From Elusimicrobia bacterium RIFOXYA2_FULL_39_19 (GTDB lineage Bacteria; Elusimicrobiota; Endomicrobiia; CG1-02-37-114; XYA2-FULL-39-19): a DNA stretch of 54,372 bases. The stretch spans positions 1 through 54,372 of the forward strand of contig MGVC01000029.1 of the NCBI GenBank assembly GCA_001800285.1, in the 5' to 3' direction. Shown one piece after another: positions 47,621-54,286 of the stretch. A program made the position numbers and the translations under genes. The number at the start of each line of letters is the position of its first letter. Position 1 is the first letter of the stretch. The notes under the pieces are model-generated. The model saw only the letters and a program-made list of their open reading frames with translations, was not told the DNA's origin and ran no database searches.

Positions 47621-50419
47621 TTACTTAAATGTAAGTTTGCCGAATTTTTCCGGCTGGTGTTCTCCAATAGGCTTGGTTAAATATTCCCAGGTTAATACTT
47701 CACCTACTGACTTCTGATCTCTTGAAATATTAAAACCAATAGTTGGTTTTTTTCCGGTAAGAACTATACCCAGCTCACTCAGCGGTATTTTCAGCTCTGC
47801 CACCCAGCGGTCTTTCAAAACTTTTGCTTCTGCTGTCAAAGGAGGGTTCCAGGAATTATCATTTATGGTTCTGTTCATGCGGTCCCTGTTGTGCCTGGCT
47901 TCCAGCGTGGCTCCATTTGGTGTAACTAATATGTGTTTATAAAAACCGGTTGGTATTTGGGCATCAAACCATAATTCCATAGTATCATCTTCCCATAGGT
48001 CTGCGTCGCGTTGTTCTTTTTTAAAAGTCCTGCTCATTCTTCCTACATTGCTTTCGTAGCAAGTTACAGCAACATAAAAATATTTGTCGTCATAAGCTAT
48101 TTTTACCGAGGTTTTATCCCTGGGCTCGCCTCCGGCACAAATAATAAAATCTTCAATGGGTTTTACCTCTGCCCAGGCAGGGTCGTTTACATTTCCGTCA
48201 ATTGTTACCGGCCCGGTAAGTTTGCCGCAAGTTTCCATTTTTTTTATCTGGGTAGATTTTGTTTTTGTTGTTCCTGCCTTGGCTGTTTCCTCATGTATTC
48301 CGTTTTTGTTTACAAATACTCCGCCGCCAAAAGTGGTGACATATATTTTTTCAATATCGTTAGGGTGCAGGGTTACACGGTAAGTGTTTATGAAAGGCAT
48401 GTCATTTATATTTTCCCAGGTGCCGCCCTTATTTTTACTTACATATATGCCCCTGCCCTTGGGTAAATCATTATCATTGCAATAAGTTGCATAAATAAGG
48501 CTCGGGTCTCTTTTATCAACGGTCAGGCCTAAAATATAATCCTGGTTTAAAACTCTTTTCCAGGTTTTACCGGCATCTACGCTGCGGTAAACACCGCCTT
48601 CGTTGCCGTTGCCCCTGAAACCGCAGATGTATAAAGTATTTTTATCAGACGGGCAGACCGCTACATCAAGTATATAGGGAAAATTTAAAGAAGTATTTAC
48701 TTTACTCCAGGATTCCCCGCTGTCAATAGATTTGTATAAGCCTCCGCCGGTACCGGTAAGTTTTCGTGTCACTACAGTATAAAGCGTACCGTCGGCAGTT
48801 CTAATAATTCTCCAGCCGTTTAGGCTTTCGGTAAGGCCGTTGTTTTTTGCAGTCCAGTTTTTACCGCCATCAACGCTTTTATAAACCCCGCCGTCCCAGA
48901 CGGTAGCATAAAGCGTTCTTGAATTAACTTTGCTGGCAGGGTCTAAGACAATGCACGTTATGGGCTTTTTAGGCAGCCCCTGGGCTGCTTCATCCCAGCT
49001 TTCACCGGCATCTTTACTTATAAACACTTTTCCAACACCCACTTTATTGGCAAACATTTTGCTTTGCGGCAGGTCATGCATGGCAGATGTTGCACCCCAA
49101 ATTCTATCTGTATTGTCCGGATCAATTTCAATCCAGTAAAATGTGTTTGTGTGATTGCCTATATATTTCCAGCTTTTACCTGCATCTACTGATTTGAAAG
49201 CTCCAATATCAGTATAAGCAATATACATTTTATTAACATTCTTCGGGTCAAAAAATACGCCGTAGCAGGTAGTTACTTCCATACCGTTGCCGGCCCAATA
49301 ATTATTGTTTTTGTTTGTAGAAGAAAGCTGATGCCAGGTTTGCCCGCCGTCTGTGGTAAGCACCGGCTGGGCATCATTGGTAAAAAGTACTATGTTGGGG
49401 TCCGTAGGTGAAATGCTCATTTCTCTAATGGGGTAAGGGCTTTGAAAACCTATAGAGTCTGTTATCCAGCAACAGTCTGCATTTTCCTGGTAAAAAATGG
49501 GTTCCCACGTAGCGCCGCCATCTTCACTTTTTAATATATCCTGATTTCCGCTCCAATAAACTGCTACATAAACAATATCAGGATTTGATAAAGACACAGA
49601 TATGTGGGCGCGGTTTAATGAAGCCGTAGATTCCAGAGTTTCCTCTATTTTTTCCCAGGTTTGCGCGCCATCTGTGGTTTTATAAACATTTTTTTCATCA
49701 TAAACATAAAGAACTGTACGCTGATTTTCCATATCACAGCCGCCGGCAATTTTAAACACCCTTCCCGAAGGAAGGTCTTTTGATACAAGTTTAAAGCTTT
49801 TTCCATTATTTTCTGATTTATAAACACCTGATCCGGTACCAATATATATGGTTCTGCTTCCCTGCGAAGTATTTCTATCAAAAAATATTTCTGTAAATAA
49901 TTCCACATCTCTTGGCAGTCCGGAACCAGCGGCTTCCCAGCTTTTTCCGCCGTCATATGTAATCATAATATTTCTTAACTTATTTGTGTACATGCTTCCT
50001 GAATCACCGCTTAATAAAAGCATGGTGTCCGGGTAATCCGGATCAATGGCCATCATAAGTGGATATCCATTGCTAAAAACATCATTATCTGCAAAAACTT
50101 CCCAGGTTTTTCCATAATCCCTTGATTTGTAAACTTTATCGCTTCCTATATATATGGTCTGTTTATCTTTATAATCAAATTTTGTAAACTGGACCAGCTT
50201 TTTCATGTCAAGCATAAGCCAGTTTTTTCCACCGTCAGAAGTAATATAATAGCCGCCCATATCACAGGAAACACCCATCACGTCCGGATTAAACGGGCTG
50301 ATAGAAGGCCGATGCACGCCGCCTCCGCCGCCGGGGCCTATGTTATACCATCTGGCATAAGCTGTGGATACTAAAAATAAAAAACACAATGCCGTAAAAA
50401 ATCCTTTATGCTGCTTCAT
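47621..50419 (-). CDS. Secreted Asp-box (GH74-like) double beta-propeller protein with C-terminal CBM9 domain
   Basis: The start is placed at ATG 50419 (932 residues) because GGAGG sits five bases upstream; an in-frame TTG at 50422 is too close to it. A signal peptide (1 to ~22) is followed by about 690 residues with some thirteen Asp-boxes (SxDxGxTW type, such as TSDGGKNW, SRDYGKTW, SVDAGKSW). This number fits two seven-bladed propellers, as in GH74 xyloglucanases. VSCDMGGYYI near the N-terminus resembles their TDVGG motif, whose Asp is catalytic. A family-9 carbohydrate-binding domain (about 728-932, VTIDGNVNDPAWAEV to FNISRDQ) ends the protein. Secreted glycan cleavage or binding is likely. 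It is monocistronic, with its own promoter and a downstream terminator. Confidence 0.82.
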   Translation of the reverse strand: MKQHKGFFTALCFLFLVSTAYARWYNIGPGGGGGVHRPSISPFNPDVMGVSCDMGGYYITSDGGKNWLMLDMKKLVQFTKFDYKDKQTIYIGSDKVYKSRDYGKTWEVFADNDVFSNGYPLMMAIDPDYPDTMLLLSGDSGSMYTNKLRNIMITYDGGKSWEAAGSGLPRDVELFTEIFFDRNTSQGSRTIYIGTGSGVYKSENNGKSFKLVSKDLPSGRVFKIAGGCDMENQRTVLYVYDEKNVYKTTDGAQTWEKIEETLESTASLNRAHISVSLSNPDIVYVAVYWSGNQDILKSEDGGATWEPIFYQENADCCWITDSIGFQSPYPIREMSISPTDPNIVLFTNDAQPVLTTDGGQTWHQLSSTNKNNNYWAGNGMEVTTCYGVFFDPKNVNKMYIAYTDIGAFKSVDAGKSWKYIGNHTNTFYWIEIDPDNTDRIWGATSAMHDLPQSKMFANKVGVGKVFISKDAGESWDEAAQGLPKKPITCIVLDPASKVNSRTLYATVWDGGVYKSVDGGKNWTAKNNGLTESLNGWRIIRTADGTLYTVVTRKLTGTGGGLYKSIDSGESWSKVNTSLNFPYILDVAVCPSDKNTLYICGFRGNGNEGGVYRSVDAGKTWKRVLNQDYILGLTVDKRDPSLIYATYCNDNDLPKGRGIYVSKNKGGTWENINDMPFINTYRVTLHPNDIEKIYVTTFGGGVFVNKNGIHEETAKAGTTKTKSTQIKKMETCGKLTGPVTIDGNVNDPAWAEVKPIEDFIICAGGEPRDKTSVKIAYDDKYFYVAVTCYESNVGRMSRTFKKEQRDADLWEDDTMELWFDAQIPTGFYKHILVTPNGATLEARHNRDRMNRTINDNSWNPPLTAEAKVLKDRWVAELKIPLSELGIVLTGKKPTIGFNISRDQKSVGEVLTWEYLTKPIGEHQPEKFGKLTFK

Positions 50420-50444
50420 CAAAGCCTCCTGAAATTTTAGTCTG

Positions 50445-51754: not shown

Positions 51755-51828
51755 ACTTCATCGCTGTCTTTGGTATTTATTTTACTGCAGTAAACTCCAT
51801 CGCTGCCGTTAACTTCATCGCTGTCTTT
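51755..51828. repeat. Short direct repeats after leuA
   Basis: ACTTCATCGCTGTCTTT occurs at 51755-51771 and 51812-51828, with a diverged AACTCCATCGCTGCCG between them. The right copy overlaps the leuA stop codon. The remaining bases down to 51587 are A+T-rich with no gene and no clear T-tailed terminator. Confidence 0.55.
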
Positions 51829-53524
51829 ATATCCTATTAAACGCGCTTAGTACAGCCTTCATGGAAGCTACGGTAATATTTTCATCAATACCGGCACCAA
51901 AAATGTTTTTTCCCGCCGATGTTTTTATGCTGATGTACGCAATAGCTTTTGAGTCTGCACCTTTGGCTACGGCATGCTCGCTGTAGTTTTCCAGCACAAA
52001 CCTGGTGCCCGTAGCCCTGATAAGCCCCTTTACAAAAGCGTCTACGGGGCCGTTGCCGTATTCATTGAAAGAGATTTCTTTGCCTTTAAAATCTATTATA
52101 CAGTTTGTTTTCACCTGTTTGGCTTTATCTTCCTTGGACTGTTTTACATCTACTTCAATGCTGTCAGCATCAATATGGCATTTTTTCAGTTTGTACGCCC
52201 AGCCGGAAGTATCCAGATAAGATTGTTTAAACACATCATTAATTTCCAAAGAAGAAAGCTCTTTGGCTGTTTTATCTGTAACGTTCTGAATCAATTTGCC
52301 AAAATCCGGCTGCATCCATTTGGGTATCAATATGCCGAAATCATTTTCCATGATATACGCCACACCGCCCTTACCGGACTGGCTGTTTATCCTGATAATT
52401 GACTCATAAGTTCTGCCTACATCTTTCGGGTCTATGGGCAGGTAAGGCACATTCCATATTTTATCTTTTGATTTGGCGTAACACTTCATTCCTTTATTAA
52501 TAGCATCCTGATGCGAACCTGAAAATGCCGTATAAACCAGTTCACCTGCATACGGATGGCGCGGAGGCACTTCCATGCGGGTTGTTTTTGTATAAATTTC
52601 CCGTATTTTATTAATATCGGTAAAATCCAGTTCCGGGTCTATTCCCTGGCTGAACAAATTTAACGCCATAGTAATAATATCCATATTACCGCATCTTTCA
52701 CCGTTGCCAAAAAGCGCGCCTTCCACTTTCTGAGCGCCCGCCATTACCGCCAGCTCTGCAGCCGCCACGGCAGTACCGCGGTCATTATGAGCATGCACGC
52801 TTATTATTACGCAGTCTCTGTTTTTTACATTATTGCTAAACCATTCTATGCGGTCCGCATAAACATTTGGAGTGGACATTTCTACCGTTGCCGGCAGATT
52901 AAATATTATTTTGTTTTTCTTATCTGGGCTCCAGATATCCATAACCGCGTGGCATACTTCCAAAGCATAATCTATCTCTGTACCGGTAAAACTTTCCGGT
53001 GAATACTGCAAACGGATATTAGGATTTTTTGCTTTTTCTTTCAATTCTTTGACAATTTTTGTGCCTTCTATGGCTATATCCATTATTTCTTTTTTGCTTT
53101 TATTGAAAACTATTTCTCTTTGCGCTGTTGAAGTGGAGTTGTACAAATGCACAATGGCATTATCCACGCCTTCTAAAGATTCAAAGGTTCTTTCCAGCAA
53201 GTGCCGTCTTGCCTGTGTTAAGACCTGTACCGTTACATCTTTTGGAATTTTCTTTTCTTCTATTAAACGCCGGACAAACTGAAACTCTACCTCAGAAGCT
53301 GACGGAAAACCCAGCTCTATTTCTTTAAACCCCATGGATACCAGAAATTCAAACATCATCATTTTTTCATCCAGGTTCATAGGTATGCTCAAGGCCTGGT
53401 TTCCGTCCCGCAAATCTACACTGCACCAAATAGGGGCCTTGGTGATGGTTTTATTTGGCCAGGTTCTGTTTTTGAAATCCATAATCTGGTATTTCTGATA
53501 CTTGTTTACATTCATTTTCTTCAT
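51827..53524 (-). CDS. leuA: 2-isopropylmalate synthase (type 2 LeuA)
   Basis: This 565-residue protein has the full length of type-2 LeuA enzymes. It catalyses condensation of acetyl-CoA with 2-oxoisovalerate, the committed step of leucine synthesis, in the cytoplasm. The N-terminus has RTWPNKTITKAPIWCSVDLR followed by DGNQ. Arg39 and Asp40 are the conserved catalytic and metal positions, and HAHNDRGTAVAA supplies the metal-binding histidines. The GNGERCGN loop and RHPYAGELVYTAFSGSHQDA are also typical. The C-terminal regulatory domain that binds leucine (about 435-565) is present. The ATG at 53524 has AGGAGAG upstream and overlaps the stop of an upstream small ORF. Expression appears to be controlled by leucine-dependent attenuation about 700 bases upstream. 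Confidence 0.95.
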   Translation of the reverse strand: MKKMNVNKYQKYQIMDFKNRTWPNKTITKAPIWCSVDLRDGNQALSIPMNLDEKMMMFEFLVSMGFKEIELGFPSASEVEFQFVRRLIEEKKIPKDVTVQVLTQARRHLLERTFESLEGVDNAIVHLYNSTSTAQREIVFNKSKKEIMDIAIEGTKIVKELKEKAKNPNIRLQYSPESFTGTEIDYALEVCHAVMDIWSPDKKNKIIFNLPATVEMSTPNVYADRIEWFSNNVKNRDCVIISVHAHNDRGTAVAAAELAVMAGAQKVEGALFGNGERCGNMDIITMALNLFSQGIDPELDFTDINKIREIYTKTTRMEVPPRHPYAGELVYTAFSGSHQDAINKGMKCYAKSKDKIWNVPYLPIDPKDVGRTYESIIRINSQSGKGGVAYIMENDFGILIPKWMQPDFGKLIQNVTDKTAKELSSLEINDVFKQSYLDTSGWAYKLKKCHIDADSIEVDVKQSKEDKAKQVKTNCIIDFKGKEISFNEYGNGPVDAFVKGLIRATGTRFVLENYSEHAVAKGADSKAIAYISIKTSAGKNIFGAGIDENITVASMKAVLSAFNRI

Positions 53525-53571
53525 TTTTCTCTCCTATTATCATTTGTGAAAATGATACTACCTGTAATCAT
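53521..53571 (-). CDS. Upstream ORF 2 of leuA (16 codons, tandem copy)
   Basis: This ORF encodes MITGSIIFTNDNRREK, with AGGAGAG four bases before its ATG. Its TGA overlaps the leuA ATG as ATGA, so termination would feed re-initiation at leuA. It is identical to the next copy upstream, because both come from a 47-base tandem repeat. It contains three isoleucine but no leucine codons. Confidence 0.55.
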   Translation of the reverse strand: MITGSIIFTNDNRREK

Positions 53572-53618
53572 TTTTCTCTCCTATTATCATTTGTGAAAAT
53601 GATACTACCTGTAATCAT
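53568..53618 (-). CDS. Upstream ORF 1 of leuA (16 codons, tandem copy)
   Basis: The peptide and Shine-Dalgarno are identical to upstream ORF 2, and its TGA overlaps the ATG of ORF 2 as ATGA. The two ORFs and leuA form a chain of three coupled starts. Confidence 0.5.
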   Translation of the reverse strand: MITGSIIFTNDNRREK

Positions 53619-53629
53619 TTTTCTCTCCT

Positions 53630-54067
53630 GTGTTCAATTAGTTTTTTGCTGTGTCATTACGGGCAGTACCCCGACTACGATTAGTGTCCTGATAACAATT
53701 GATGAAAGGATAAATCAGGATGTCAAACGGTAAAAGGGAAAATCGGGATTGCGGGCATTCCACTGAATACTTGCGAAGCAATCCCCGTATTTCTTATTGT
53801 CTTTGATTTTTTTTGAACCGATTTATTCGCTTATTTCGATGTTTTTCCTTTGGACCGTTGAAAAAAATTGAGATTTTCAAAACTCCTCTCCCGTTAAACG
53901 GGATCGTCAGACAGTTGAAAATCAGTTTCAATTTTTTCAACTAAAACATCGGATGTCGCTCAAAATCGTTTCGTTTATTTTTAAAATCAAAAACTTTTCA
54001 AAAAAGCCAATCCGCTGGGGCTGCGAGTAGCGTCCTGACCACCTATTATAAAAGGAAAAGTCAGGGT
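53630..54067 (-). other. Long leader segment between the leu attenuator and the upstream ORFs
   Basis: No gene is seen in this 440-base stretch. It contains GGGATTGC/GCAATCCC arms (about 53743-53797), CCTGAC/GTCAGG arms (about 54033-54066) and the large nested inverted repeat annotated separately. Its make-up differs from a normal short leu leader and may be an inserted non-autonomous element. Confidence 0.5.
53837..53951. repeat. 115-base nested inverted repeat in the leu leader
   Basis: Arms occur in matching order around a centre CCCGTTAAACGGG: CGATGTTTT/AAAACATCG, GTTGAAAAAAATTGA/TCAATTTTTTCAAC and GATTTTCAA/TTGAAAATC. As RNA it would fold into one long hairpin between the attenuator and the leuA start. 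Confidence 0.7.
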
Positions 54068-54107
54068 AACGCCATACACATTCGCCAAAATAAGGCGAAT
54101 TGGCGTT
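54068..54107 (-). other. Hairpin directly after the leu attenuator
   Basis: AACGCC/GGCGTT and ATTCGCC/GGCGAAT arms form a two-part stem just beyond the terminator T-run. It has no T-run of its own and may protect the 5' end of read-through message. Confidence 0.5.
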
Positions 54108-54141
54108 AAAAAAACCACCGGCTTTGGGGGACGGTGGTTTT
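54108..54141 (-). terminator. Leucine attenuator terminator with competing antiterminator
   Basis: On the minus strand AAAACCACCG (54141-54132) pairs with CGGTGGTTTT (54120-54111) and is followed by a run of Ts down to 54108. The same 5' arm can pair with ACGGTGTGTTTT (54180-54169), the last codons of the leader peptide, with one bulged base. Terminator and antiterminator are therefore mutually exclusive. Confidence 0.85.
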
Positions 54142-54166
54142 ACTTTTTTTTATTTTTTTTAACGAA

Positions 54167-54250
54167 TTAAAACACACCGTCTGCCGCAGTTTTTAACTGC
54201 AGTAATAGGTTTAGGAGAAGGAGGTTTAAGTTCGTTAATTTTTGTTTCAT
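54167..54250 (-). CDS. leuL: Leucine leader peptide (attenuation control)
   Basis: This 27-codon ORF reads MKQKLTNLNLLLLNLLLQLK, then TAADGVF. Ten codons are leucine, with runs of four and three. The stop lies inside the antiterminator arm, as expected if ribosome stalling at leucine codons decides between antiterminator and terminator. CTGCAGTT/AACTGCGG inside the ORF can form a pause-type hairpin. The -10 box ends six bases before the ATG, so the message probably starts at or next to the AUG and lacks a Shine-Dalgarno. The symbol is by analogy with enterobacterial leuL; the sequence is not homologous. Confidence 0.88.
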   Translation of the reverse strand: MKQKLTNLNLLLLNLLLQLKTAADGVF

Positions 54251-54256
54251 AAAAGA

Positions 54257-54286
54257 ATTATATCAAATATTAAACCCAAAATTCAA
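54257..54286 (-). promoter_or_regulatory. Promoter of the leu leader and leuA
   Basis: TTGAAT (54286-54281), an 18-base spacer and a perfect TATAAT (54262-54257) put the predicted start near 54250, the first base of the leader ATG. Confidence 0.75.

Follow-up and report, generated by a model that had tools for sequence, protein, structure and literature searches.

A leucine-rich leader upstream of leuA in an Elusimicrobia genome: a probable ribosome-mediated attenuator, very probably related to the Chlorobiaceae leu leader

Does the DNA upstream of leuA in this Elusimicrobia genome hold a leucine-sensing switch, and, if so, where did the switch come from and how is its leader peptide translated? 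The window (the whole 54,372-nt stretch that was analysed) is a complete contig, whose edge is reached 86 bp beyond the -35 box of the promoter described below and sets the limit of readable upstream sequence. From 54286 to 54108 on the minus strand, the sequence runs in order through a promoter, a Leu-rich ORF, an antiterminator arm and a T-tailed terminator, all upstream of leuA, which is the next gene downstream on that strand. Gene leuA (51827..53524, minus strand) encodes a 2-isopropylmalate synthase of 565 aa, has a strong Shine-Dalgarno sequence, and scored 730.5 bits against TIGR00970 (cut-off 697.4). We conclude with high confidence that the region is a ribosome-mediated leuA attenuator, which very probably shares an ancestor with the Chlorobiaceae leu leader and reached this lineage together with leuA.

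Promoter, leader ORF and competing RNA structures

A consensus scan placed a -35 box, TTGAAT, at 54281..54286 and a -10 box, TATAAT with an extended-10 TG, at 54257..54262, both on the minus strand. This promoter (TTGAAT-18-TGATATAAT) has an 18-nt spacer and 10 of 12 consensus matches, and was the top site of the region. The ORF that follows (minus strand, 54250..54167) encodes MKQKLTNLNLLLLNLLLQLKTAADGVF*, with 10 Leu in 27 codons; given the local Leu usage of 6.3%, the probability of at least 10 Leu in 26 codons was 2e-6. The rare Leu codons CTA and CTC account for 4 of these 10, versus ~6% of Leu codons in the window genes. The ORF lacks a Shine-Dalgarno sequence: the anti-Shine-Dalgarno duplex was +0.6 kcal/mol for the leader and −7.3 kcal/mol for leuA.

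Four strands of the minus-strand RNA compete for pairing. Strand 1 (UUAACGAA, codons 5–7, 54231..54238), which is conserved in Chlorobiaceae, pairs with UUCGUUAA on the 3' side of the stop codon (54159..54166) to form a protector helix of eight pairs; in ribosome-free RNA this helix encloses a weaker pairing of strand 2. Strand 2 is the antiterminator arm GACGGUGUGUUUUA, made of the final ORF codons and the stop (54168..54181). Strand 3, UAAAACCACCGUC (54130..54142), is the common partner of antiterminator and terminator. The intrinsic terminator hairpin and its T tail occupy 54108..54141, with arms AAAACCACCG (54141–54132) and CGGTGGTTTT (54120–54111). The antiterminator (GACGGUGUGUUUUA:UAAAACCACCGUC, −13.1 kcal/mol) and the terminator (−12.3 kcal/mol) are mutually exclusive, and in the folding model the pairings 1:2, 2:3 and 3:4 correspond to the classical attenuator scheme with four strands. 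A local hairpin within the ORF, CUGCAGUU-AAA-AACUGCGG (54184..54202, minus strand, −9.4 kcal/mol), was found in the window only and lies outside the conserved Chlorobiaceae structure.

Folding of the region gave z = −4.2, and none of 200 shuffles was as stable. Base-pair probabilities favored the terminator (P 0.90) both without a ribosome and with a ribosome on the stop codon. With a simulated ribosome stalled at a Leu codon, antiterminator P was 0.81–0.99 at 8 of 10 stalls, and was mixed for the stalls at codons 8 (0.48) and 10 (0.41). When the upstream 109 nt were shuffled and the terminator was kept, 0 of 500 sequences reached an antiterminator P ≥ 0.8 with the stalled ribosome, and the shuffle mean was 0.009 versus 0.95 for the window. 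In these simulations, ribosome position decided between antiterminator and terminator. Sequence, folding and shuffles thus agreed with the preliminary description, which had listed a promoter, a 27-codon ORF with 10 Leu, an antiterminator arm and a T-tailed terminator. In an AT-rich intergenic region next to a contig end, such as this one, an ORF might stand by chance ahead of an ordinary terminator, but the Leu excess, the fold and antiterminator shuffles, and the Chlorobiaceae homology given below refute this explanation, whose probability we consider negligible.

We propose that RNA polymerase would start at or beside the AUG, and that a ribosome would load on the leader without a Shine-Dalgarno sequence and translate the ORF. 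When Leu-tRNA is scarce the ribosome would stall at Leu codons (codons 5–19) and open the protector pairing of strand 1, leaving strand 2 free for strand 3; the 2:3 pairing would block the terminator, and transcription would continue across the spacer to leuA. When Leu-tRNA is plentiful, the ribosome would reach the stop codon and mask strand 2, allowing the terminator to form. If no ribosome were present, strands 1 and 2 would pair and the terminator would likewise form. Ribosome-mediated leucine attenuation had been suggested in the preliminary description, and this proposal was strengthened: the predicted folding of the alternative stems is what such a switch needs, and the Leu-rich ORF, antiterminator arm and terminator all recur in Chlorobiaceae.

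Related leaders in Chlorobiaceae

Nearly all Chlorobiaceae relatives carried a homologous Leu leader 165–210 nt upstream of leuA, a family that goes beyond the preliminary description. Its layout is a Leu-rich ORF, a terminal arm like GGAGGTGCTTTTTAG, and then AAAGCCGCC...GGTGGCTTTTTT. We found and aligned 62 of these leaders for analysis. A sequence-only profile of 39 Chlorobiaceae leaders, from which the window was excluded, gave a single match in the window, at the leader (E 2.9e-9), and a single match in the host genome (E 1.5e-7). The window and Chlorobiaceae leaders share a Leu-rich ORF of similar length, the protector helix, an antiterminator arm that has the stop codon at its end, a T-tailed terminator, the lack of a Shine-Dalgarno sequence and a TIGR00970-type LeuA downstream; they differ in that the Chlorobiaceae promoter lies ~40 nt further upstream, with a predicted 5'UTR, and the Chlorobiaceae spacer to leuA is short.

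Leu itself was conserved at ORF positions, although the codon used for it differed (position 17, for example, was Leu in 27 of 28 sequences, through four different codons); this pattern would be expected of a peptide whose translation serves to read leucines. Across the protector helix and terminator 93% of pairs were kept, with terminator pairs counted over 61 sequences, and the covariation score was reached by 0 of 500 shuffles. The antiterminator kept 77% of its pairs, versus 40–57% for slid versions. The preliminary description had asked whether Leu codons and both stems co-vary in relatives; Leu was conserved and the protector helix and terminator covaried, but covariation of the antiterminator in the leader alignment was not above shuffles. 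In strand 3 of the window, the G of AAAGCC has become A; a C to U change in the terminator 3' arm matches it, and the antiterminator arm fits too. With a simulated stalled ribosome, 54 of the 62 Chlorobiaceae leaders formed the antiterminator before the 3' arm of the terminator existed; when the ribosome was placed on the stop codon, 2 of 62 did so. At equilibrium, many Chlorobiaceae leaders favored the terminator regardless of ribosome position, and their support for the switch comes from the kinetic view only.

Could the likeness be convergence of Leu-rich attenuators, with the leader and leuA having met independently? A his-type leader in another genome of the same class (G024) has similar antiterminator and terminator arms, and poly-U arms impose similar ends, such as GGTGYGTTTTA. 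This partly similar attenuator scored 27 bits to the profile via arms that may be convergent, and therefore the profile score rests partly on generic attenuator features. However, the ORF part stripped of antiterminator and terminator still matched, its base sequence beating 998 of 1000 codon-order shuffles against a scoring matrix. The window and Chlorobiaceae also have AACGAAC...UUCGUU in common, as the protector helix AACGAAC:GUUCGUU, and the gene downstream is the matching LeuA type. We consider convergence improbable and favor common descent of the two leaders.

Some Chlorobiaceae depart from the usual layout. Two Chlorobium-type genomes (L042:2336-2500 and L078:2337-2500) lack the Leu leader and have a tRNA-Asn gene in its place, with a terminator alone before leuA. 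In four others (L013, L014, L023 and L068), a one-base frameshift ends the leader ORF ahead of the GGAGGTG arm; the ribosome would therefore halt earlier than in relatives.

Origin of leuA and the spacer behind the switch

The closest relatives of the window LeuA were Chlorobiaceae proteins, which were about 58–63% identical to it, whereas LeuA proteins elsewhere in the host phylum were at most 29% identical, and genomes of the same family carry a different LeuA type (as judged by Pfam score and length). A maximum-likelihood tree grouped the window LeuA with Chlorobiota and one Omnitrophota sequence (L064) at 100/99 support, its long branch falling outside the crown of Chlorobiota. The preliminary description had suggested a search for the same leader upstream of leuA in related genomes; Chlorobiaceae have it, but none was found elsewhere in the host phylum, where a profile search of 340 genomes gave no leader match of comparable extent and an ORF scan upstream of LeuA-type genes gave no convincing Leu leader. 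Neither L064 nor L066, the nearest other LeuA relatives, had a leader. Partial profile matches in the host phylum were rejected as Leu leaders, and look like terminators or other attenuators. Because the leader was not found elsewhere in the host phylum, joint acquisition of leuA and switch is probable, and acquisition of both from a Chlorobiota relative is the simplest reading. We infer the donor and the direction of transfer from this distribution and one long-branched tree. The locus would then be a probable case of an attenuator that moved across phyla together with its gene.

A second feature absent from the preliminary description is the spacer from terminator to leuA (53525..54107, minus strand), which is interspersed with host repeats that have ~50 matches in the genome itself. 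The terminator–leuA distance was about 590 nt in the window versus a median of 36.5 nt (32–68) in Chlorobiaceae. Because this long, repeat-bearing spacer now lies between them, present-day control of leuA by the switch is likely rather than certain; leuA might instead rely on a different promoter or have lost its coupling to the switch. In the extreme, the switch would be a relic, uncoupled by repeat insertion from a leuA now read from a spacer promoter, and the distance (587 nt versus 32–68 nt) and the many genomic copies of the spacer repeats speak for this. Against it, the leader, the promoter, both alternative stems and the T tail are intact despite divergence of LeuA to ~63% identity, and the G to A change in strand 3 is compensated in both partner arms. 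A consensus scan of the spacer towards leuA found no promoter above threshold, only 9-of-12 AT-rich sites with AAAAAT as the second hexamer. We therefore regard a relic as unlikely, if somewhat less so than convergence, and prefer a switch that still acts on leuA.

An interspersed repeat of ~190–200 bp with imperfect inverted halves lies at 53805-53993, between attenuator and leuA, and has at least 15 copies in the host genome at 72–88% identity. A 47-bp tandem repeat at 53521-53639 covers the leuA ribosome-binding site and duplicates the Shine-Dalgarno sequence and an ATG; these copies might serve as decoy start sites or as short ORFs. Two genes past leuA, positions 47621-50422 encode a secreted-looking protein of 933 aa that carries sortilin/BNR repeats and, at its C terminus, a CBM9-like domain.

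Known leader systems and the mode of initiation

Scanned against Rfam at gathering scores, four Chlorobiaceae loci and the corresponding region of the window gave tRNAs only, and a permissive cmscan returned chance-level matches only. A T-box or riboswitch was rejected, having no Rfam match. The leader of the E. coli leu operon (Rfam Leu_leader, RF00512) is alike in ribosome stalling at Leu codons and in opposing an antiterminator to a terminator, but it gave no sequence match to the window even with permissive cmscan. The E. coli leader has a Shine-Dalgarno sequence, unlike the window leader.

No paper on the Chlorobiaceae leu leader was found among the open-access papers searched. The mechanism is known, and the Chlorobiaceae leu leader family is apparently absent from Rfam and from those papers. 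A 2010 survey considered leader-peptide attenuation to be shown only in Proteobacteria and Actinobacteria, and itself added Firmicutes (PMC2965389). To a mechanism described mainly in these three phyla, the present results add a leu attenuator family that is common in Chlorobiaceae. In actinobacteria, the LEU element likewise has a leader with a Leu run upstream of leuA, but there a pseudoknot sequesters the leuA Shine-Dalgarno sequence and no terminator is present (PMC1262725).

Six bases (TTCTTT...) separate the -10 box of the window promoter from the AUG, whose A is the nearest purine downstream of the box; transcription would therefore be expected to start at 54250, and a leaderless leader mRNA is plausible. 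The host genome contained 28 TTGAC-17/19-TATAAT-ATG arrangements versus 7 in a reversed control, and in 12 of the 28 the ATG lay 6–8 nt after the box (p 1e-4). Promoters at this distance precede ordinary host genes (valS-like, MFS, PHP and RnfC-like; e.g., L141, L143, L144, L145 and L148). This host-wide excess suggests that leaderless starts are probably ordinary in the host. The leaderless leader of the preliminary description is thus supported as a prediction from sequence, by the predicted start on the A of AUG, the lack of a Shine-Dalgarno sequence and the host-wide pattern.

The description of this layout as uncommon was not supported, given that leaderless promoters look common in the host and that leaderless Leu and Trp leaders have been published. 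Leaderless Leu leader peptides, LeuL1 and LeuL2, were reported in Streptomyces lividans (PMC8079986); LeuL1 stands before leuA as in the window, but it has 15 aa and is without a typical intrinsic terminator, and LeuL2 precedes leuS. The ilvB leader of Corynebacterium diphtheriae is also leaderless (PMC5784534). In Sinorhizobium meliloti, the trpL attenuator RNA begins at the AUG of its leader peptide, although it senses Trp and is unrelated in sequence (PMC7298713).

Chlorobiaceae leaders appear to start differently. In 55 of 63 sequences (including the window row), a TATWTT box preceded the AUG by 39–65 nt, from which their 5'UTR would seem to be about 35–40 nt, and an anti-Shine-Dalgarno check found no Shine-Dalgarno sequence in them. 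By analogy, the window mRNA might also start further upstream and bear such a 5'UTR. The window, however, has no such box there, its top promoter predicts the AUG's A as +1, and its own genome has the excess of promoters 6–8 nt before ATG, including that of the valine-tRNA synthetase-like gene. An upstream start is accordingly a minority possibility in our judgment, and we favor the predicted leaderless start.

A more specific history, which we offer tentatively, is that the whole attenuator crossed phyla together with its gene and stayed functional, but came to be initiated differently, from a Chlorobiaceae 5'UTR without Shine-Dalgarno to a truly leaderless message in the host. If so, the same stall sensor would be loaded by a different route of initiation, possibly by 70S ribosomes, with any resulting change in sensitivity; the preliminary description had raised a possible sensitivity of the switch to 70S initiation. 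The UTR-borne and leaderless leaders would form a natural pair for asking how initiation mode affects attenuation. In the same class, an apparent attenuator (L130:1421-1640) lies upstream of a hisG-containing cluster, with a 30-aa leader containing HH, a terminator, and TATAAT 9 nt before the leader ATG.
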